Shown: positions 2,084 to 13,176 of the stretch, piece after piece | How positions within the stretch are numbered: position 1 is the stretch's first letter | Layout: every line of letters starts with the position of its first letter | NCBI GenBank assembly: GCA_946062035.1 | Contig: CAMGTS010000016.1 | Location: 1-13,176 of the forward strand | Direction of reading: 5' to 3' | Source of the DNA: an uncultured Bacteroidales bacterium | GTDB taxonomy: Bacteria; Bacteroidota; Bacteroidia; Bacteroidales; UBA932 | DNA length: 13,176 nucleotides | Program-made: the position numbers and the translations under genes | The notes under the pieces: generated by a model | What the model was told of the DNA's origin: nothing | Databases searched by the model: none | The model's input: only the letters and a program-made list of their open reading frames with translations

Positions 2084-3070
2084 ATGACAAAAGGACGGTT
2101 TAAAATGTCTGACGCTTTTGAAAAATATCTGACCTCTTTTTGCAGTTATCTGAAATTGGAAAGATCTTTATCCGCAAATACCATCGCCGCATATAGATCT
2201 GACCTGAATGATTTCGCTGATTTTTGTGAAAATAGAGGAATCGTTTCCCCTGATGTTGTAGGCGGTGAGGATGTCGAGGATTTTCTTTCAAAAAAATATT
2301 CCGAGGGTATCTCTACAAGAAGTCAGGCTCGTAAAATATCGGCTCTCAGGGCGTTCTTCAAATTCTTTGCGATGGAAAGCGGCGATAAGGAGTTCGTGAA
2401 CCCTTGTGTAAAAACAGATTCCCCGAAGCTTGGTCGTTCTCTTCCTACGGTTCTAAGCGTCGACGAGGTCAGCAGGATTATTGAGTCTGTAGATCTCTCC
2501 ACTTATGAAGGCATCCGTAACCGTGCCATTATCGAGATGCTGTATTCATGCGGTTTGAGAGTAAGTGAACTTATAAATCTCAGGCTTTCAGATCTTTTCT
2601 TCACGGAATCTTTTATAAGGGTAGTAGGAAAGGGGAACAAGCAGAGGCTGATCCCTGTGGGAGAGTATGCGATTGTGGCTGTCCAAAACTATATCCCACT
2701 CAGGCATGAGACTTTAGAGAAGGCATTGGAAAAGGGTGGAGGTTCGGCGAAATTCGGCAAAAGCGCCCGAAGCGTAAAGGCTTCAAAAGCGGAAGATACT
2801 CTGTTTCTGAATCGTAGAGGCGGCCCTATGACCCGTGAGATGGTTTTTACAATTGTCAAAAAGCAGGCTGCTATCGCCGGTATTAAAAAGGAGGTTCATC
2901 CTCATACATTCAGACATTCGTTTGCGACGCATCTTGTGGAGAACGGTGCTGACCTGCGTGCGGTGCAGGATATGCTTGGTCACGAAAGTATCTTGACTAC
3001 AGAGATTTACACTCATGTCAGTTCGAAACAGTGGATGAAGAACATTCTGGAGCATCACCCGCAGAGATAG
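2084..3070 (+). CDS. xerD: Site-specific tyrosine recombinase XerD
   Basis: XerD works with XerC to resolve chromosome dimers at dif during division. The 328-residue protein has an N-terminal SAM-like core-binding domain (about 11-105, with LERSLSANTIAAYRSDL) and a C-terminal catalytic domain with the full set Arg159 (CGLRVSEL), Lys183 (GKGNKQRLIP), His274 and Arg277 (HPHTFRHSFATHL), His300 (MLGHES) and nucleophile Tyr309 (IYTHV). The tail ending HHPQR matches the XerD-type HHPRA end better than XerC. Translation could start at 2084, 6 bp after nth, or at an in-frame ATG at 2105; the latter would drop seven residues outside the domain. A Lys/Ser/Gly-rich segment at about 212-236 is longer than in E. 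coli XerD. Its last 17 codons overlap the opposite-strand thioredoxin-like gene. Position in a housekeeping operon, with no att-like repeats nearby, argues against a mobile-element integrase. Confidence 0.88.
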   Translation: MTKGRFKMSDAFEKYLTSFCSYLKLERSLSANTIAAYRSDLNDFADFCENRGIVSPDVVGGEDVEDFLSKKYSEGISTRSQARKISALRAFFKFFAMESGDKEFVNPCVKTDSPKLGRSLPTVLSVDEVSRIIESVDLSTYEGIRNRAIIEMLYSCGLRVSELINLRLSDLFFTESFIRVVGKGNKQRLIPVGEYAIVAVQNYIPLRHETLEKALEKGGGSAKFGKSARSVKASKAEDTLFLNRRGGPMTREMVFTIVKKQAAIAGIKKEVHPHTFRHSFATHLVENGADLRAVQDMLGHESILTTEIYTHVSSKQWMKNILEHHPQR

Positions 3071-3977: not shown

Positions 3978-6900
3978 CTACTTTTCTTTGATCAGAATAA
4001 TCTCCCTGTTCTCGTAGAGCTCGCGCAAACTGTTGACAGTCGCAACGTATGACTCTCCTGCATTCGGCGAGTATCTGATTTCAACAGCATCCGTGAACCA
4101 GTTGTAATTGTATTCGGAACGGAGCTTGAGGCTGTATTTTCCTGTCTCGGTAATTGACATGGCGCCGATACGGTAGCCGTTGTCTTTCATGGCGAACGAA
4201 ACAAAGTTGTCGCCCGGAATATCGACAGCGCTGCCGGCGTCTTCACCGAATTTTATTGTGCCTGTAATCAGATTGTTGCTCACATTGAAGACCTTCTCAA
4301 GGTAAGTCACAACCTCCGCCTCAGAACTGATGACTATCTGTCCGGTGCTTACGATTGTCTTCTTCTTGAAAGGAAGGCGCTTGCGCTCGTTCGTACGGTT
4401 CACCCCTGCAAGTCCGATGTGGTTGGCGTGAGGATCTGCGACTCCGAAAGTTCTCTCGGCCTCTCTGTCCGCATCGACGGTATATATGAACCTTCCTGCA
4501 ACAAGCGGGTCCGCCTTGAGTTTGTCTGCGGTCAGATTGCAGTCTATCAGTCTGTCAGCATCAATCTCGAGCATAGGGGCATCGATATAGACCTCGAAAG
4601 ACTCGCCGAACGGGTCGACAGACTTGCCGTCCATACCCTTGAATGATGAGATGTCTATCTCTATGTCGACATCCTCGTCAGGGGTGTATTCGAGGACAAT
4701 CTCATCCTCCGCCTCTGGTTCAACGTCGCTCCACTCAGAAATGTCGGAGTGCTCATCAATGTCTTCATAAGGCAGATTCGTACCAACGCCGTTGACTTCC
4801 GCAAAGAATCTGAAAGGTCTGTAGTTCTCCAGTCTGAAGATTGCTGAGCGGTATCCGTAACCGTGCGAACCGTCCTCCATGTCGGCATATTTTGCGGACG
4901 GGGCGAGGCCAGGATGCTCGCGGTAGAAGTCGTAGCCAGGCATATTCGATGAGATACGCACCACCTCGTTGCTCTTCGCACGGTTGGTGGTGAACTCTAT
5001 GTTGTATTTGCCTGCATCCGGTGTTCCTGCGTGGTTTGACTTCGGCCAGAAGAGAAGCATTCGTCCTCGGTCTGTCCATTGGTCGCTGCTCATCGTCTGG
5101 AATTCGAAATCGGAAGCCGCTGTGTTGTGCTCCAGGTTTGTCGTAAATGCAAAGAACTCGACAAAATCTATATTCGGGTCAACCGCCGCACCGGTGGCTT
5201 TGTCTGTGAGCAAAAGCTCGAAAGAGACCTCTGCATTGCGCTTCTGAGGGACGAGATAGTAGTACAGATCCTCGTCGGCCGCCGAGCCTTCAGGAGTGTT
5301 GGACGCATTGTATTTCTTCAAGTTGCTGAGGTCGATTCTTCGGAGATTGTTGGTGTAGCTGTAGTCCATGCTGACACTTCCGAAATGGTTGGCGTCCAGC
5401 CAGACCTCGCCTTTGTAGCCGGTGTTCTGTTGCAGCACGTTGCGGAAATATACGGAATGGTCTCCCGGACCTCTGACGGTGTAGACATATTTGTACTCGA
5501 CTCCGTGGTCCGCTCCGAATCCATCTTCGTTCTTGAAAATCAGAGGAAGCTGCATGCCTGAAGCGTTTCGGATATCCAGTCCTGCCGCTGAAATCAGCAC
5601 GTCGAACGGATAAAGCTCTTCAGGACAGGTCTCCGGAATATGGAACATCAGCGTAATGAAAGACTTCTGAGTCTCGTGGATTGGGGCGCCAGGGTATATG
5701 TTACCATCAAGCTGCGAAGTAATCCACACAGGGGTGAAGGTTTGTTTCTTGATTACGATGATGTTTATCTTGCGCTGGAGTCTGCCGTGTTTGACAAGCA
5801 GCGTACCGCTGTGTCTGGCATCGGAGCCGAGGTCAAGCAGGGTAGGCTGGATTACCGCACTCATCTCGGAGCCGGAAATCGTAGGGTTGTCGAATCCGTT
5901 GATGAAGTTGTATTGCGCCACATTGTTCTCGTTCACCCATTTTACGCTCGGAGCATCCTCTTTGGTGATGGCCTTTCCGTCCAGACGGGTGAGGCTGACA
6001 TCGAATTTAGGATATCTGTATGTGTCGTCGGCAAGCTGCGACTCGTCGAGCACAAGGTTTGTCGGCTTTACGCTGAGCCTGAACTGGCCGTCGGTAAGCG
6101 TCTCCACATCATCGGAGATAGAGAGCCAGACATTGTTGGTTGCAGCAGCCTTGAGAGCCTTGGCAAAACTCTCCTGTCCGTCAGAGAGCTCACTGATGAT
6201 ATTCATTATATAGTGGTAGTTCCTTCTTATCTTCGCCTGCTCTCCGTCCTCTCTGATAATCAGCGTGCGGTAGTAGAGTCCGTTGGCTTTGATGATAACG
6301 CTGACAGGGTCGGACGAATCGTTCTCGCTTTCGTAGATATACGAGACATCGTCCGGAGCTGTGTCGATGTCCGACGGGTCTGTGAGTTTCTGTTTATTCT
6401 CGGGAAGCGTGACAATCTCGCTCCACTCATCGCTGGTAAACTCCTCTGCAGTAGGGAAATATGAAGTTGTCTTGGATGAGAACGGGGCAACCGTGCCGAA
6501 TGCGTGGGTGTTGCACACTGCAAATCCCTCCACAACGACACTCGAAACCTGTGATTCGACAGTTACCTTTGCCTGGTTGCGGATAAGCTTTATAAGCTTG
6601 CCCTGCAGTGCATCACCGATCTCTTTGTCCGCATCTTCAGCACTCTTCTGAAAACGGCCCCAGTAAATCATCTTTCCGGCAGAGCCTTCGAGAATGGATA
6701 TTACCTCCTGCTCGCTCTTGCCTCGGAAGCTGTCTTCGCTGAAGTTCGTAAGGTTCTGATTTGAAAGGAAATGGATTCTGTTAGTGTTTCTCGGAATATC
6801 TGCGGTCAGCTTTCCGTCTGTCGGTGTCGCTATGGTAAGATTGGCCCTCACGGTCGATATGAAGAGTCCGTATGAGTCGAAGCAGAACAGGTCCATAAGC

Positions 6901-7103
6901 TGGACACCCTGCGCACCGTCCGGGTCGACCGCCCTGGTCTGTACCTCCTCCATTGTCGGGATGCCGATACCAACGCTGATTCGGCAATATCCGTCAGGTA
7001 TATTATCCGGCAGCCTGTCCATATCTTTGGCACACGACTGGGCAAATGCGCCTGCAATCGCAAGCGTAACGACAAGGGCTATATTTCTTATATATGATGG
7101 CAT
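3978..7103 (-). CDS. Very large pilus-operon lipoprotein, probable tip/accessory adhesin (Mfa5-position, DUF4906-like)
   Basis: This 1041-residue protein has a hydrophobic N-terminus and a probable lipobox AQSC with Cys24 as the lipidated residue, followed by a fimbrillin-like segment. A beta strand (YCRISVGIGIPTM) leads to a candidate maturation site VQTR57-A58, then DLFCFDSYGLFI and RIHFLSNQNLTNF, the usual type V pilin pattern. The rest is predicted beta-rich with many Gly/Asp/Tyr residues, suggesting several stacked Ig-like domains. Residues about 776-820 are strongly acidic (EDIDEHSDISEW through DEDVDIEID). It resembles the DUF4906 lipoproteins that accompany Bacteroidales fimbrial clusters, judged from memory of the family. 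Its size and distal place match Mfa5 of P. gingivalis, but I see no von Willebrand A MIDAS motif (DxSxS), so it is not an obvious Mfa5 orthologue. It starts 22 bp after the 737-aa gene. Confidence 0.75.
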   Translation of the reverse strand: MPSYIRNIALVVTLAIAGAFAQSCAKDMDRLPDNIPDGYCRISVGIGIPTMEEVQTRAVDPDGAQGVQLMDLFCFDSYGLFISTVRANLTIATPTDGKLTADIPRNTNRIHFLSNQNLTNFSEDSFRGKSEQEVISILEGSAGKMIYWGRFQKSAEDADKEIGDALQGKLIKLIRNQAKVTVESQVSSVVVEGFAVCNTHAFGTVAPFSSKTTSYFPTAEEFTSDEWSEIVTLPENKQKLTDPSDIDTAPDDVSYIYESENDSSDPVSVIIKANGLYYRTLIIREDGEQAKIRRNYHYIMNIISELSDGQESFAKALKAAATNNVWLSISDDVETLTDGQFRLSVKPTNLVLDESQLADDTYRYPKFDVSLTRLDGKAITKEDAPSVKWVNENNVAQYNFINGFDNPTISGSEMSAVIQPTLLDLGSDARHSGTLLVKHGRLQRKINIIVIKKQTFTPVWITSQLDGNIYPGAPIHETQKSFITLMFHIPETCPEELYPFDVLISAAGLDIRNASGMQLPLIFKNEDGFGADHGVEYKYVYTVRGPGDHSVYFRNVLQQNTGYKGEVWLDANHFGSVSMDYSYTNNLRRIDLSNLKKYNASNTPEGSAADEDLYYYLVPQKRNAEVSFELLLTDKATGAAVDPNIDFVEFFAFTTNLEHNTAASDFEFQTMSSDQWTDRGRMLLFWPKSNHAGTPDAGKYNIEFTTNRAKSNEVVRISSNMPGYDFYREHPGLAPSAKYADMEDGSHGYGYRSAIFRLENYRPFRFFAEVNGVGTNLPYEDIDEHSDISEWSDVEPEAEDEIVLEYTPDEDVDIEIDISSFKGMDGKSVDPFGESFEVYIDAPMLEIDADRLIDCNLTADKLKADPLVAGRFIYTVDADREAERTFGVADPHANHIGLAGVNRTNERKRLPFKKKTIVSTGQIVISSEAEVVTYLEKVFNVSNNLITGTIKFGEDAGSAVDIPGDNFVSFAMKDNGYRIGAMSITETGKYSLKLRSEYNYNWFTDAVEIRYSPNAGESYVATVNSLRELYENREIILIKEK

Positions 7104-7125: not shown

Positions 7126-9339
7126 TCAATTATTTTGTTCTGTCATATAAGCGTCTCTGATGCAGCGGATAGCAGTACCGGAATTTCCGCCTCCGATATA
7201 TACAGATCCACTTGCGGCGTAGTAGTTGTTTCCGGTCAATACTTTATCCATTGCGTCAGAAGCGGTCTGATATTTTTTTATAATCAGCAATTCGGCCTCT
7301 GTCGGAAGTCTCCAGTCGTCCAAATGTACAGTTTTACCGGTCTCAGGGTCTTTATAGGCCTCAACATACTCTTTGCAATGGCTCGCTGCCATTGCCACGC
7401 TGTTGAATCCGCTTACGGCACCCAACTGCGATGCAATCATAAATGACGGGGATACGAGTTTTGCGTTATCTTCTCCCGGATCGGTTACCCCGTCGGTAAT
7501 ACGGGGCTTTCCGACAATATATTCATCAGAGGTGGAGGTAATCCTTATATGGTACATTCGAGCGTTATTCAAATTTGAACCTGCAGACGAAAGTTGCGGA
7601 GTGTCAGTATCTTTATATCCGGAGTTAAACCAATCGAACACCCACTTTTGGTATTCATAGTATGAAATAGTGGACGAACCATCACTTTTGACTTCGGCTA
7701 CTTTCGAAGTAAAATTGCCACTACCAGAGGATTTGCTATAAGACCATGTGCCACTACTGCTATTGTAAGAGCCGGCGGTTACATATCTTGAGGATACGAA
7801 ACTTTCATAGTGAGTGCCTTCAAAGTCTGAGCGGTAGCTGTACCAGCCCTGGATATTTGTGATATACTCCAGCGGGAACTGGTGAACTAAGAATGTCTCT
7901 ATCTCTCCCTCTTCGTTTGTCACCTCAAACTCCACATACTGGATAGTGTTGTTTGTAGGGACAGGAATGTGTATGTCTATCGCACCCGAAAGGGCGTTTG
8001 CCTCTGCCGATTTTGCTGTTATCTGGCTGGTTATCGAGGTTGAAACGGGCTGTTTCTTTCCCAATTTATCGTAGTAATATGCGCTTTTGACCGTTACCGT
8101 AATCTTTGAGGATGATGAGAAAAGTATACTTGTCTTGTCATCCGCAACATTGTGCATATCCAGTTCATCGTGGTTGAGGTAGAGGAATATAGGCTTGCTC
8201 TCGCTTCCACCAAGGTCTACCTTTGTCTCGCCCCAGCCAATCACTGTATAGTCAATATCCTTGATATCAACAGGCTCGAACTCAGAGTTCGCGCCCGGAG
8301 CGTTGATCTTGAAGGAGAGCTGATAGCAGTGGTTGCGTTTCAGGCTCTGCTCCTGACTGAGAGGAACTCTGTACCAGTTCTCTGGCAAAGCTTTCTCTTC
8401 CCATACGATTTTTCCTTCAGAGTCTTTCTCGAACTCAACGCTTCCGTCAGGATTTGTGATTTTTTTTGCCACCAACATCGGGATGTTCACAAGCAGGTTG
8501 GTCTGCTCCGTCTGGCTCTTGTCCTTCCAGACATAGCTGTATGCGTATGTCACGATATCGATAGTGTTGTTCTCTTCGTTCATCTCGAAGAATCTCTCCG
8601 CATTGCTCTTGTCAGGTGTGCGCAGACGTGGATTGTTCAGAGTAACTTCCGAGAGCAGAGTTGTCTCGTAAGGCATGTTACGCATATAGTAGCCTCGTCT
8701 GTTTCCCTCTACAGCGGTGAAGTTGACACTCTCTCCGCCGGTGATCTTTACGACAATCTTTGCAGCGGCCCTTTTGAGGTTTACAGTCAGCTCGGTATTG
8801 TGGCTCTTGACACCGTCATACAGCACTACGCTTCCCGGAGTGGCAGGTTCTGTCGCCCCGTCGTATGCGATGCCGTCCATGATGAATGTCTGGGGAATAT
8901 CTACTCTGTTGACAGTCATGCCGGTCATGTGGATATTCTGGTCAGTGCATCTTTTCGAACGAAGGTCCGCAAGGGACGATACTCCGTCCAGGTCCTCTCT
9001 GCTGTTGGCTATCAGGTAGACCCAATAGCGCTTGTTGGCCGTAAGCTCGCTTCTGCGCTTTCTCAAGAAGACTCTTCCCCCTTTAAGTTCCGCCTCGCCG
9101 AACTTTTCGTGTGTCACGAGGTTGCCGTTGTCAAATATGAAAATGTCGAGCAGCTCAATCTTCTCCTCAATCTCTTTGAGCACATTTTCATTGATGGCTC
9201 TGCTGCGTGCATCGGAAGATGAAATCTGCAGGATAATCAAGTCATTGCCACTGCCGGGTTGAAGGATATCCTCTTTCCCGCAGGAGAAGAGAACCATTGC
9301 GGCAATGGTCATGATCATATATGCCAATGACTTTTTCAT
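7126..9339 (-). CDS. Fimbrillin-like lipoprotein with C-terminal FISUMP-like domain (candidate tip adhesin)
   Basis: The 737-residue product begins with a lipoprotein signal (MVLFSC, Cys20). A fimbrillin N-domain follows: strand NDLIILQIS, candidate maturation site RSR47-A48, LLDIFIFDNG (63-72), YWVYLIANS (105-113) and LKRAAAKIVVKI (188-199), matching the R..A.l.l.v pattern of FimA/Mfa-type pilins. The segment DYTVIGWGET (363-372) marks the end of a second pilin domain. Beyond about residue 500 comes a Ser/Gly/Tyr-rich stretch (521-545), then a C-terminal domain with DDWRLPTEAELL (674-685), YYAASG (706-711) and final AIRCIRD (723-729). That signature is of Fibrobacter-type FISUMP domains, which share the C-type-lectin/FGE-like fold. 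I infer a ligand-binding subunit exposed at the pilus tip. An AAGAAG sequence lies 9 nt before the ATG. Cys655 and Cys726 could form a disulfide. Confidence 0.78.
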   Translation of the reverse strand: MKKSLAYMIMTIAAMVLFSCGKEDILQPGSGNDLIILQISSSDARSRAINENVLKEIEEKIELLDIFIFDNGNLVTHEKFGEAELKGGRVFLRKRRSELTANKRYWVYLIANSREDLDGVSSLADLRSKRCTDQNIHMTGMTVNRVDIPQTFIMDGIAYDGATEPATPGSVVLYDGVKSHNTELTVNLKRAAAKIVVKITGGESVNFTAVEGNRRGYYMRNMPYETTLLSEVTLNNPRLRTPDKSNAERFFEMNEENNTIDIVTYAYSYVWKDKSQTEQTNLLVNIPMLVAKKITNPDGSVEFEKDSEGKIVWEEKALPENWYRVPLSQEQSLKRNHCYQLSFKINAPGANSEFEPVDIKDIDYTVIGWGETKVDLGGSESKPIFLYLNHDELDMHNVADDKTSILFSSSSKITVTVKSAYYYDKLGKKQPVSTSITSQITAKSAEANALSGAIDIHIPVPTNNTIQYVEFEVTNEEGEIETFLVHQFPLEYITNIQGWYSYRSDFEGTHYESFVSSRYVTAGSYNSSSGTWSYSKSSGSGNFTSKVAEVKSDGSSTISYYEYQKWVFDWFNSGYKDTDTPQLSSAGSNLNNARMYHIRITSTSDEYIVGKPRITDGVTDPGEDNAKLVSPSFMIASQLGAVSGFNSVAMAASHCKEYVEAYKDPETGKTVHLDDWRLPTEAELLIIKKYQTASDAMDKVLTGNNYYAASGSVYIGGGNSGTAIRCIRDAYMTEQNN

Positions 9340-9380: not shown

Positions 9381-10904
9381 CTATTCAACCTGTGTAATTA
9401 TTATATGCTCCGGAGTCGTTGTCCCTGCGTATGCGAGACCACCCACGCGTCCGTTGATCAGCAGGTACTGCGCCTCAGGAAGCCATGACGGATAGTATGA
9501 GATCGAGAGTCTGCATTTCTCGCCGATATAGTCGGCTCTCTGTGCATAGACTCTGATGACATACGGATCAGGCGATGCTACCCATTTGTCCGGGTCGGTG
9601 ATTTCCACTCCGTTCTGGAACACCTTGAGCGTGTAGGCTGTCGAGGCCCTGTCGAGCGTCGGGATGAACTTCTGCCCGAGAGGGGCGGTCATGCTGAACT
9701 CGACGGCAAATGCTCCTGCAGACGGATCAATCGGGTTGTATTTTACGGTAGGCTGCGGATACGGCGTCACCATGGACGGGTCGTACGGGTGCGGCTTCAC
9801 CGGATTTGAATAGGTCGGGAAGTCGAACTCCATGCTCCACTTCACTTCTGTCCAGTCTGCAACCTTGTAGTTTATGATAATCTGTCCTTCGTCACTTATC
9901 GTGCAGAGGACGTTGTAAATCGTATTTCTGTCAATTTTCGGCAGGTAAATCTCTTTCCAGATTGTTCCTCCGCCGTTGAAATTGTATGCTATTTCGAGCG
10001 TGCCGCCCTTCTCGTCACCCTGTTCGCTCCAGCTGTCAGAGCCGTATATGTTTTCGAATATATAGTGCGGCTGTGTTACAGGTGTGTAGTATGTATCATC
10101 GGTCTTGTGCTCCGGAAGTGTCCCTTCGTACTCCTTTATGTTTTCCGCTTCGCTCGTCAATGTCAGCACGATATCGTCATCTTTCGACTTGATTGCCTCG
10201 AGAATCCCGTCAACCTGAGGCATCACATACTGGCGGAGCTTGGTGCCTGACTTCAGGATTCTTGCTCCGACAATTTTCAGCGTGCTGCTCTCGCCGCCGA
10301 CTTTGGCTGCGTAAAGGTCGAGTCTCGATACGCATCTTGTAAGCTCGATGTCCACCTTCTGGCTGATGAGGATATGTCCGTAATGCTCCCCTTTGTTGAC
10401 AGCGTCCGTGTCGCCCGGGCCGAGACTTGTCGTCCTGATATTGGCTATGTCTATGTCGGCATAGTTGCGGTAGAACATCGGAACTCCGTTGGTTGCGAAA
10501 TCGTTGTTTGTCACAAAGTAGAGGGTTTCCAGCTGGTTTCTTGTCATCGTCTCTGACAATTGGGCCGAAAGTGCACCCATCGCTTTTTCGTTTGCGATGA
10601 CATAGAACTCTACACGCTGTACGTCGACAGAAACAACCTCCATATCCACAAGGAAGTCGTAAGGGACGGTATTCCCCCCGAAATCCTCATAGTAGCCTAC
10701 GAGCCTGTTCCCCACGAATGCCCAGAGTCGCAAAGAGTGAATCTGAGACTCGTAGTCCGGAGTCGCCTTCTCACCGATGCTCATGAGCATAAGCACATTG
10801 TCTTCTCCCGTCTTTCCCACTTCCGATGACTTCTCGCAAGAGGCGGAGAGCAATGCAACAAGTGAAATCAATATTGCGCCGATATATGTTCTCAACATCG
10901 TCAT
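9381..10904 (-). CDS. Fimbrillin-like accessory pilus lipoprotein with extra C-terminal domain (Mfa3-position)
   Basis: The 507-residue product starts at the ATG at 10902-10904, chosen because AGAAGG lies 6 nt upstream; the codon before it is an in-frame TTG. A lipoprotein signal ends SASC with Cys23. The pilin core is clear: strand NVLMLMSIG, SLRLWAFVGNRLVGYY (57-72), VEFYVIANE (98-106), LTRCVSRLDLYAAK (188-201) and a closing strand IIINYKVADWTEV (342-354). At the place where its neighbours have Arg-Ala, this protein has Lys46-Ala47. After DWTE comes a Pro/Tyr-rich linker (about 362-393, YSNPVKPHPYDP) and a roughly 110-residue beta-rich domain absent from simple shaft pilins. Position and size match Mfa3 of P. 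gingivalis, an accessory subunit needed for incorporating others, but sequence identity cannot be judged by eye. Confidence 0.78.
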   Translation of the reverse strand: MTMLRTYIGAILISLVALLSASCEKSSEVGKTGEDNVLMLMSIGEKATPDYESQIHSLRLWAFVGNRLVGYYEDFGGNTVPYDFLVDMEVVSVDVQRVEFYVIANEKAMGALSAQLSETMTRNQLETLYFVTNNDFATNGVPMFYRNYADIDIANIRTTSLGPGDTDAVNKGEHYGHILISQKVDIELTRCVSRLDLYAAKVGGESSTLKIVGARILKSGTKLRQYVMPQVDGILEAIKSKDDDIVLTLTSEAENIKEYEGTLPEHKTDDTYYTPVTQPHYIFENIYGSDSWSEQGDEKGGTLEIAYNFNGGGTIWKEIYLPKIDRNTIYNVLCTISDEGQIIINYKVADWTEVKWSMEFDFPTYSNPVKPHPYDPSMVTPYPQPTVKYNPIDPSAGAFAVEFSMTAPLGQKFIPTLDRASTAYTLKVFQNGVEITDPDKWVASPDPYVIRVYAQRADYIGEKCRLSISYYPSWLPEAQYLLINGRVGGLAYAGTTTPEHIIITQVE

Positions 10905-10910
10905 CAATAA

Positions 10911-10924: not shown

Positions 10925-11824
10925 CTAAATCGAATCAGGTCTGATCTCCTCTACAAACCAGCTCGGAACCTGTACGATAACCTGTCCCGAGAAGAAACGT
11001 ATCTCGATTGGTATGAGGACTTCCTGTTTCGTTACGTCTATCTTGTCTGCGTTGGCGGCGAGGAACTCTGCAAGGTTCACCGTTGCAAGCGTTGCCCCGT
11101 CTGTGTCTGTGACGCTGACGTTTACTCTGTCGTGGGCAGTGTGTCTCATGATGTTGAAACTGCTGCTCATCGTTGCGTTTGTCGCACTGTACTGTGTCTC
11201 AGGTATGTATGTCACCTCTTCTCCGCGGGCCTTGTTTGTGAAGTCCGTGCTCGGAAGCAGGCCTGACATCCCTATAACCGGAAGATTCTCTCCCGGAATA
11301 CCGACCACCTGAATTATGACGTCGTAGTGCGAGCATTTGAAGACGGCTGTTCTGACCTTGTCATTCGGGTTCTCGGCATCGTACGGCTCTATCTCATAGT
11401 CCAGTAATGAGAAATAGAGCGGGTCGTTGCCTTTGACTGTTCTTCCCGCAGTGTAATCTTTGTCCGAGAAGAGGATGTCGTCTCCGAAAACTCTTGTAGG
11501 CAAGCCGTTTACGTCGGTATGGTATGTATTGCCGAGGCAGACGATTCTGTAGTTTCCCTCATCGAGCTGAGGAAGCTGCGTCTTTCTTGCACGCACGTCT
11601 GCGTCCGGCAAAGTGTAGCTTTTGACTACCTGGTTGTCGGAGTTGAAGATATAGATGTCAACTTTGTCTATCATATTGTTGAATATCTCATCCTCCCCGT
11701 CTCCGACATAACTCAAGAGGAGGTAATTGATATTGTGGCAGTCGCTTAGGTCTTCCCTGACGCATGACGGCAGGAAAGCGACGAGCATCAGCATCGTCAG
11801 GACTGCTTTTGTGATTTTCATCAT
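10925..11824 (-). CDS. FimB/Mfa2-family pilus anchor subunit (lipoprotein)
   Basis: This 299-residue lipoprotein is predicted to tether the pilus base to the outer membrane and limit its length, as FimB and Mfa2 do in P. gingivalis. It has a signal peptide ending LPSC (Cys21), followed by the family's typical start REDLSDC with a second Cys29. The transthyretin-like N-domain shows NYLLLSYVGDG, VDIYIFNSDNQVV and GNYRIVCLGNTY; the second domain includes RTAVFKCSHYDVIIQVVG and the closing strand QVIVQVPSWFVEE, where FimA-type pilins have their C-terminal donor strand. Unlike the other subunits it has no Arg-Ala site in the first 60 residues, consistent with an anchor that keeps its lipid. Two successive ATGs open the gene; AGAAG lies 5 nt upstream of the first. 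The stop is 20 bp before the next gene's ATG. Confidence 0.87.
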   Translation of the reverse strand: MMKITKAVLTMLMLVAFLPSCVREDLSDCHNINYLLLSYVGDGEDEIFNNMIDKVDIYIFNSDNQVVKSYTLPDADVRARKTQLPQLDEGNYRIVCLGNTYHTDVNGLPTRVFGDDILFSDKDYTAGRTVKGNDPLYFSLLDYEIEPYDAENPNDKVRTAVFKCSHYDVIIQVVGIPGENLPVIGMSGLLPSTDFTNKARGEEVTYIPETQYSATNATMSSSFNIMRHTAHDRVNVSVTDTDGATLATVNLAEFLAANADKIDVTKQEVLIPIEIRFFSGQVIVQVPSWFVEEIRPDSI

Positions 11825-11978: not shown

Positions 11979-13094
11979 TTAGAATTCAGGAGTTACAGGA
12001 ACGACTTTCCACTCAGCTACTTCCACTGTCAACTCTACGCAGCGTTCAGGATTTTCCCATACTTTGTCTTTGATAGGGAAGAGTACGCGGTAGATCTTGC
12101 CTGCCTCGAATCTTTCAGCAGTAGTGAAGCGGCCTTCGACATACAAAGGCGTATCGGGCGAACCTGCCTTCTTGCCTAAGAAGCTAACATAGAGTGAAGG
12201 GTTGTTCGCTGCTGATACTTTGGTTTCGGCAAGACCGAAGGTTATGATGTTCAGCAGATTGTCTCCATTTCCGGTATAACCGGTAGCATCATCCCCATTC
12301 GTGAATTTTCTTTTGCCTTGTCCGAGAGTGAAATCTGTAAGGCCGTTTGCCCAAGGTGCGACAGCGGCATCGATCCATCCCCATTTCAGAGAACTTTCTG
12401 TAGGCGCTATCACAGCAGCACCCGATGCAGCTTTTGTCAAATAGTTGTATTTGGTATAGTAGCCGCTCAATGCGATTTTGCTTATCTGGATCTCATCGAA
12501 AGAGTACACAGTACTTCCTGTCCCCAAAACATACTCCAGACCGTAGATCTCGAAACGTGCCGTGCGCGGAGTGAGATTGACTGTGGCTGTATAGACATTA
12601 GGATGCCCGCTTCCGTCTGCACCGTTTTTGCGTGAGAGGCCGCTATCTCCGTAAAGAGGATATACAGGATGGTTGCCTGTGCCGTTGTCGTTGAGCACGT
12701 CCAACTCCCCAGGCATGGCTGAATAATCGATATCGCCGAGGTTACCGACGATCACTACCTTGACAGCAGATGCAGGGACAAAGTGGTATGTGTATGTGTT
12801 GGTACCGCTCAATTCTGCGCTTGTGAAATACACCTTCTGTTCCGTCGAATTGTAAGTCGGAATTGTCACAGGGGTATTGGCTGCATCGAGGAAAAAGATC
12901 TTGAAGTTCTCGAGACCTACAGCCTCGTTGTTGTTGATTGCATCGCCTGTCGCTCTTGAGATAGGAGCGATGTTAGGCAATGTTACAGTAACTTGCTTCA
13001 AGCCGTCATCACCCTCCGGGCCATGACTTTTGCTGCAGGCTGCCAGAGCCATAGAGGCAACTGCGGCCATCAATAATAAACTTTTTACTTTCAT
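11979..13094 (-). CDS. FimA/Mfa1-like major pilus shaft subunit (fimbrillin)
   Basis: The 371-residue precursor has a textbook lipoprotein signal ending ALAAC (Cys20). A first strand (LKQVTVTLPNIAPI) runs to a candidate maturation site SR47-A48; P. gingivalis FimA is cut by Arg-gingipain at Arg46-Ala47, almost the same place. Further fimbrillin landmarks are LENFKIFFLDAAN, VKVVIVGNLGDI and TPRTARFEIYGLEYV, and the C-terminal strand VELTVEVAEWKVVPVTPEF, which should insert into the groove of the next subunit after cleavage. The smallest of the cleavable subunits, first in the operon and alone before a strong hairpin, it is most likely the shaft protein. Mature protein has a single cysteine, Cys352. 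The leader is A-rich (AACAAACAAC before ATG) with no Shine-Dalgarno, and contains the hexanucleotide repeat. The promoter is probably beyond the window. Confidence 0.87.
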   Translation of the reverse strand: MKVKSLLLMAAVASMALAACSKSHGPEGDDGLKQVTVTLPNIAPISRATGDAINNNEAVGLENFKIFFLDAANTPVTIPTYNSTEQKVYFTSAELSGTNTYTYHFVPASAVKVVIVGNLGDIDYSAMPGELDVLNDNGTGNHPVYPLYGDSGLSRKNGADGSGHPNVYTATVNLTPRTARFEIYGLEYVLGTGSTVYSFDEIQISKIALSGYYTKYNYLTKAASGAAVIAPTESSLKWGWIDAAVAPWANGLTDFTLGQGKRKFTNGDDATGYTGNGDNLLNIITFGLAETKVSAANNPSLYVSFLGKKAGSPDTPLYVEGRFTTAERFEAGKIYRVLFPIKDKVWENPERCVELTVEVAEWKVVPVTPEF

Positions 13095-13176
13095 GTTGTT
13101 TGTTTTTAAGTGTTTATATTTATATTTATATTTATATTTATATTTATATTTATATTTTGTTTGTGCTATTTCTCCT
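13095..13176 (-). promoter_or_regulatory. Upstream region of the pilus operon (leader, repeat array; promoter not seen)
   Basis: This 82-bp stretch is very A/T-rich and precedes the first pilus gene. It contains an A-rich leader next to the ATG, then the hexanucleotide array, then 22 bp to the window edge. No TAnnTTTG box occurs on the minus strand here, so either transcription starts further out or a different type of promoter lies in the repeat. Confidence 0.5.
13113..13154. repeat. Hexanucleotide tandem repeat, 7 perfect copies (TATAAA on coding strand)
   Basis: The plus strand has seven exact copies of TTTATA over 42 bp; the coding strand for the shaft pilin reads (TATAAA)7. The array ends 18 bp before the shaft gene ATG, inside the leader or promoter. 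Perfect short tandem arrays of this length are prone to slipped-strand mispairing, so copy number could vary between cells. Confidence 0.95.

Follow-up and report, generated by a model that had tools for sequence, protein, structure and literature searches.

What does a long, perfect hexanucleotide repeat do when it stands immediately in front of the gene for the shaft of a pilus: does it switch that gene, tune it, or leave it alone? The question is raised by the window, that is, the whole stretch of 13,176 nucleotides from an uncultured Bacteroidales bacterium that was analysed here. It contains (TATAAA)7, exact and on the minus strand, at positions 13113-13154. Tandem Repeats Finder traces the array over 13113-13157 with a period of 6, 7.5 copies and 100% matches; seven full copies and a partial unit make up an unbroken period-6 stretch of 45 bp. 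The ATG of the pilin gene is at 13094-13092, and 18 bp (13095-13112) separate it from the array, which covers positions -19 to -63 from that ATG. The original prediction of a perfect, seven-copy, 42-bp TATAAA array 18 bp ahead of the pilin ATG is thus borne out by the exact coordinates.

Such a tract does not arise from base composition. None of 200 dinucleotide shuffles of the window held (TATAAA)7, in 300 Markov simulations of the window no period-6 tract exceeded 16 bp (45 bp were observed), and none of 20,000 simulated leaders of 82 nt (85% AT) reached 45 bp, their maximum being 23. The array is far beyond chance, and the long perfect repeat that marks an SSR contingency locus is present. 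It is also solitary. Four or more exact TATAAA copies occur at this single place in the genome, which is fragmented (208 contigs, 74% complete), and a search of 311,140 of its bases for perfect arrays (period 4-12, at least three copies, at least 18 bp) returned the array at the pilin and no other; by the same rule, 400,000 bases of a same-genus genome hold ten perfect arrays, none of them TATAAA. The window ends at 13176, where the contig itself ends, 19 bp past the array, and the leader is visible for 82 nt, of which 13158-13176 (minus strand, with a TAG at 13170-13168) form the upstream flank. The upstream gene and any promoter farther out therefore lie beyond the visible sequence.

The gene behind the array (11979-13094, minus strand) encodes a 371-aa lipoprotein that is, according to its predicted structure, a FimA/Mfa1-like type V shaft (major) pilin. 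Sequence comparison says little here: Pfam gave no match to the pilin, the NCBIfam Mfa1 family NF038041 scored 25.3 bits (8e-06), below its cut-off of 130, and sequence searches of the PDB with the pilin found nothing. The AlphaFold model (45 sequences; pLDDT 82.3, pTM 0.77) was matched by Foldseek best to the B. eggerthii protein 4gpv (E 2.1e-14), and also to related Bacteroides pilins, to the FimA prepilins of the type V major fimbrium 6jzk and 6jzj and to FimA 4q98; the matches to 4gpv, 6jzk and 4q98 have a probability of 1.00 and a TM of about 0.5, with an rmsd of 7-9 over the whole length. On the same strand there follow an Mfa2-like anchor pilin (10925-11824; PF08842, 104.2 bits versus a cut-off of 21.2), a 508-aa ORF (9381-10907), a FimD-type fimbrial tip adhesin (7126-9339; NF052322, 493.4 bits versus a cut-off of 170) and a 1041-aa ORF that is the last of the operon (3978-7103), the two ORFs having no match in Pfam, NCBIfam or PHROGs. 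With a model that matches FimA prepilins and with the anchor and tip subunits next in line, the type V shaft pilin named in the original prediction is upheld.

Two further observations concern the operon as a whole. The pilin is patchy in the genus, a 39-genome genus set giving only partial other matches (E 6.9e-7 and 2.2e-5), and many homologs at 42-52% identity are present in the protein database, two of the named ones coming from Bacteroides; this pattern suggests that the pilus operon was transferred or replaced. Near the operon, at 2084-3070, lies a XerD-type recombinase that scores 333.2 bits and so passes the XerD equivalog cut-off of 329.6, from which it is probably a housekeeping enzyme and not a fimbrial invertase.

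Is the array variable? A pilin from another source that is 97% identical (P0001 hereafter) provides a second allele. Its gene was called from an ATG farther upstream, so that its leader has been translated, and the frame through the array has no stop and is that of the pilin, TATAAA reading Tyr-Lys. P0001 reads MLQTGEIAQTKYKYKYKHLKTNN-MKVKS: its leader, MLQTGEIAQTK-YKYKYK-HLKTNN-MKVKS, has three units, and the leader of the window in the same frame, GEIAQTK-(YK)x7-HLKTNN-MKVKS, has seven. In the alignment of the two the amino-acid flanks are identical and four units are missing from P0001; between the two pilins themselves there are 12 substitutions and one gap of a single residue. P0001 was seen as a protein, and its three TATAAA units assume that its Tyr-Lys codons are TAT AAA. 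With that reading, since three units in P0001 and seven in the window stand between identical flanks, TATAAA copy number differs between close relatives. Copy number is thus not invariant, in keeping with the original prediction, as judged from two assembled alleles, one of which was read from protein. The 7 versus 3 is a difference between relatives and is distinct from switching within a clone.

We looked for more alleles in several ways. A search with the first 60 residues of P0001 matched only P0001 and P0002, an 83%-identical protein that starts at MKVKS, the lipoprotein Met, and among the 120 homologs listed of 151 the (YK)n extension occurs in P0001 only. At the DNA level, two genome-contig scans for relatives turned up a single distant anchor locus and no locus for the pilin, a scan of viral contigs with the leader flank gave no match, and a search in nine genomes of the family of G1138 (one of the genomes with a homologous pilin locus) found G1138 itself only.

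The surroundings of the array can be judged from ten other homologous pilin loci. Eight come from the 398-genome family sample, at 28-32% identity (nine matches including our own), one, at 32% identity, from a 393-genome order sample, and one, G021, from the 39-genome genus set, where the match extends over 72 residues only and the gene order around it is the same; G034 of the genus set, a weak match of 46 residues inside a 1015-aa frame, was left out. In every one of the ten loci a same-strand ORF ends shortly before the pilin ATG, at distances of 29, 32, 36, 37, 39, 45, 51, 59, 60 and 69 bp. Its product carries TPR over the Pfam cut-off in all ten, joined in four (G021, G1138, G325 and G305) by an OmpA domain over cut-off and in three of these four by DUF3868, also over cut-off; the other six upstream proteins have TPR only. 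As a rule, then, the pilin appears to be an internal cistron preceded by a short A/T-rich spacer, and because a co-directional ORF ends 29-69 bp before it in ten loci of ten, the array most likely lies in the intercistronic spacer of one operon. The same layout implies that the array would be transcribed.

For our genome, the gene upstream of the pilin is predicted from these homologous loci, which are distant (28-32% identity), so that the gene layout here may differ. That gene may end with the TAG at 13170-13168; the spacer would then measure 73 bp, and with the three copies of P0001 it would be 49 bp long, which falls among the distances seen in the homologs. The genome has two OmpA-like proteins, on contigs C54 and C129, which we rejected as the missing upstream gene since both are internal to their contigs. 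A 15-bp match of the outer flank of the leader on contig C99 was taken as chance (E 0.79); it lies inside an ORF that we take to be an aspartate carbamoyltransferase. Repeats with a period of 4-9 and more than 2.5 units are absent from the last 110 nt of all ten homologous leaders, and with arrays missing there the TATAAA array looks like a recent local expansion of the spacer.

What could a change of length at this position do? Bacteroidetes are described as lacking Shine-Dalgarno sites, and initiation in Flavobacterium as favoured by A at -3, -6, -12 and -13 and by low structure from about -20 to +20 (PMC6847099). Here the 18-nt translation-initiation region CACTTAAAAACAAACAAC (13095-13112, minus strand) has A at all four favourable positions, between the array and the ATG, and the array begins only at -19. 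The fold of the leader is ordinary (z 0.20), and we rejected a structured leader on this account. With the start context intact and no special fold, the effect of copy number would be graded at most. Frameshifting, which had been set aside originally on account of the 6-bp unit, is indeed excluded by that unit length. Whatever the number of copies, the reading frame continues through the array without a stop.

The following scheme would account for these features. A recent expansion of the A/T-rich spacer between the upstream TPR/OmpA-like gene and the pilin would have produced the array, whose length would then change in 6-bp steps by replication slippage, the process that we infer. A change of copy number would shift only the distance from stop to start (about 49 bp at three copies and 73 bp at seven, if the TAG is the stop) and with it the length of an A/U-rich ribosome landing tract, and the 18 nt next to the ATG would stay constant whatever the number of copies. 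If there is any effect, it would consist in adjusting by degrees how strongly the pilin is translated in relation to the upstream gene, and not in switching a promoter on or off. Our tentative reading, which we hold with slightly more doubt than conviction, is therefore worded with a condition: a length-variable SSR in an intercistronic leader of a type V pilus operon, which would act as a graded translational tuner if it is effective. A more specific version, in which the number of units would set the amount of shaft pilin heritably and reversibly through the translational coupling distance, and hence the number or length of pili, seems unlikely to us at present.

A close rival of the tuning reading is that the array is a neutral microsatellite: the A/T-rich leader would tolerate expansion, and copy number would be without effect on pilin expression. 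We consider this a doubtful but quite serious possibility. The array is sporadic and apparently young, all ten homologous leaders being free of it, and neither the untouched initiation region nor the ordinary fold of the leader calls for a function. Its distribution elsewhere can be read in both directions. At least four TATAAA units occur in two of 398 family genomes including our own (one of 397 others), and in one of 395 phylum-sample genomes, which is our own (none of 394 others). The second family genome, G103 (L054:5179-5212, G103:C14), carries five units, and 11 bp after them comes the ATG of a lipoprotein-like ORF of 483 aa, for which NCBIfam gave no match. The protein is found at nine loci in 8 of the 13 genomes of its genus, G103 included. 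Apart from the locus of G103 itself, one was truncated, one could not be located, and six, in five genomes, have readable homologous leaders that are A/T-rich and lack an array. An array before an unrelated lipoprotein gene whose homologs do without it agrees with neutrality. On the other hand, the array of the window precedes the very subunit most worth tuning, and in the sole other case in the family a lipoprotein gene starts within 11 bp of the array, a hint of an effect through the leader. That both family cases stand just before a lipoprotein-like start is suggestive, for what two cases can tell.

The original prediction had also considered that the array lies in the pilin promoter. In a switch of that kind it would separate promoter elements or an operator from the transcription start, as in hmwA and nadA. 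A surface gene, a long perfect repeat and copies that differ between relatives would all suit a phase switch of this type, and the 7-bp repeats of hmwA (PMC2424069) and the repeats of nadA (PMC2791445) do act so. The placement itself is not borne out, however, since the pilin follows a same-strand TPR-bearing ORF at 29-69 bp in all ten homologous loci, and we regard a promoter-spacing switch as improbable. A search for the -7 element (mentioned in PMC6847099) adds little to this. The 82 visible nt of the leader contain no exact TAnnTTTG, and neither do the 250 nt upstream of each of the ten homologs, where chance would give only 0.47 and the scan has little power. Allowing one mismatch, the ten homologous regions contain seven sites versus 10.19 expected, again a weak test; four of the seven are 14-22 nt before the ATG, two in G379 and one each in G321 and G1138, and these three homologs out of ten are what the scan offers in favour of a promoter. 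Promoter-like sites are thus without excess over chance in a scan that alone has little power, and the case against a promoter array is made by the operon layout, not by the -7 scan. As for the unit itself, TATAAA resembles the -10 box of E. coli, whereas Bacteroidota use another consensus.

An assembly artefact, in which the copies or the 7 versus 3 difference stem from repeats that were collapsed or wrongly joined where a contig ends, is very improbable. The contig does stop 19 bp past the array, and P0001 also comes from an assembled contig. However, ordinary reads are longer than 45 bp, both flanks are the same in the two alleles and, as a matter of reasoning, if a 45-bp array had collapsed in an assembly with a short k, about k repeat bases or more should be left, not 21. 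Least probable of all is a coding repeat, with a start at the upstream in-frame ATG of P0001 and an additional (Tyr-Lys)n stretch at the N-terminus of the prepilin: the open frame and the choice of that start by the gene caller of P0001 allow it, but the extension would stand ahead of a signal peptide, MKVKSLLLMAAVASMALAAC looks by eye like a complete lipoprotein signal, and neither P0002 nor any other listed homolog shares the (YK)n stretch.

How does the tuning reading compare with known systems? In Moraxella catarrhalis, the AGAT repeat of uspA2, like the poly-G tract of uspA1, lies downstream of the promoter and ahead of the start codon; the uspA2 copy number varies with the strain and tunes expression (as summarised in PMC4679880). 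There as here, a short tandem repeat stands in the leader of a surface-protein gene. The unit, the phylum and the gene are different; moreover, uspA2 comes with expression data, whereas the tract of the window is apparently intercistronic and known from sequence alone. In hmw1A and hmw2A of Haemophilus influenzae, more 7-bp repeats generally mean less transcript, though not in every isolate (PMC2424069). These are also tandem repeats, upstream of an adhesin gene, but they are in promoters, while the 82 visible nt here show no promoter and the homologs show an operon spacer. A further parallel is the TAACTGA heptamers found just before start codons in Beggiatoaceae, Cyanobacteria and five Bacteroidetes, in which relatives differ by whole units and a role in translation was proposed (PMC4679880). 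Both are direct repeats before a start codon with copy differences in unit steps, Bacteroidetes included; the unit in our case is TATAAA, and some TAACTGA genomes carry many sets, in contrast to the one array of at least four TATAAA copies found in the genome here.

In Bacteroidales, it is invertible promoters that are described as diversifying surface structures (PMC12632263). The present locus differs in that repeat length, not inversion, is the variable; we found no inverted repeat in 12800-13176, the region near the leader, and rejected an invertible element there. The accessible part of that review covers inversions and type V pili and does not mention repeat slippage, and the part of a general review of phase variation that was available names Bacteroides in connection with DNA inversion and with an early shift that depended on temperature (PMC11868660). 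Among open-licence papers, searched by title and start of abstract, we found none on repeat slippage controlling a type V pilus. Taken with these precedents, the length-variable leader repeat is real, of a known kind and in a fitting place, and the promoter version of the putative switch is unlikely.

Similar arrays occur in phages. In an AT-rich phage lineage of IMG/VR (L111, L115, L116, L118, L119, L121-L123, L125, L127 and L128; GC 0.26-0.29 in the five members measured), several small adjacent genes have a TATAAA run a short way ahead of their ATG, and relatives differ in the number of copies in the leader of the same gene (5 versus 4, 2 versus 4 and 1 versus 2). One member, L116, carries terminase, portal and head protease. 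Elsewhere, at L126:4754-4789 and L120:2098-2133, six TATAAA units stand 30 bp before a long phage ORF, which begins MAEMLSPGVYVDEKDM in L126, a start that resembles a tail sheath protein. The AT-rich lineage is a natural comparison for the function of leader arrays.

Even if neutral, the array would be a handy strain marker, and because the tract is only 21-45 bp long, short reads can score it directly in existing metagenomes. Surface variation in Bacteroidales has been described mainly as DNA inversion. Tuning through the coupling distance, if true, would make this the first case of a type V pilus with a contingency locus of the slippage type, and a length-changing repeat before the shaft pilin would add a second route to pilus heterogeneity.
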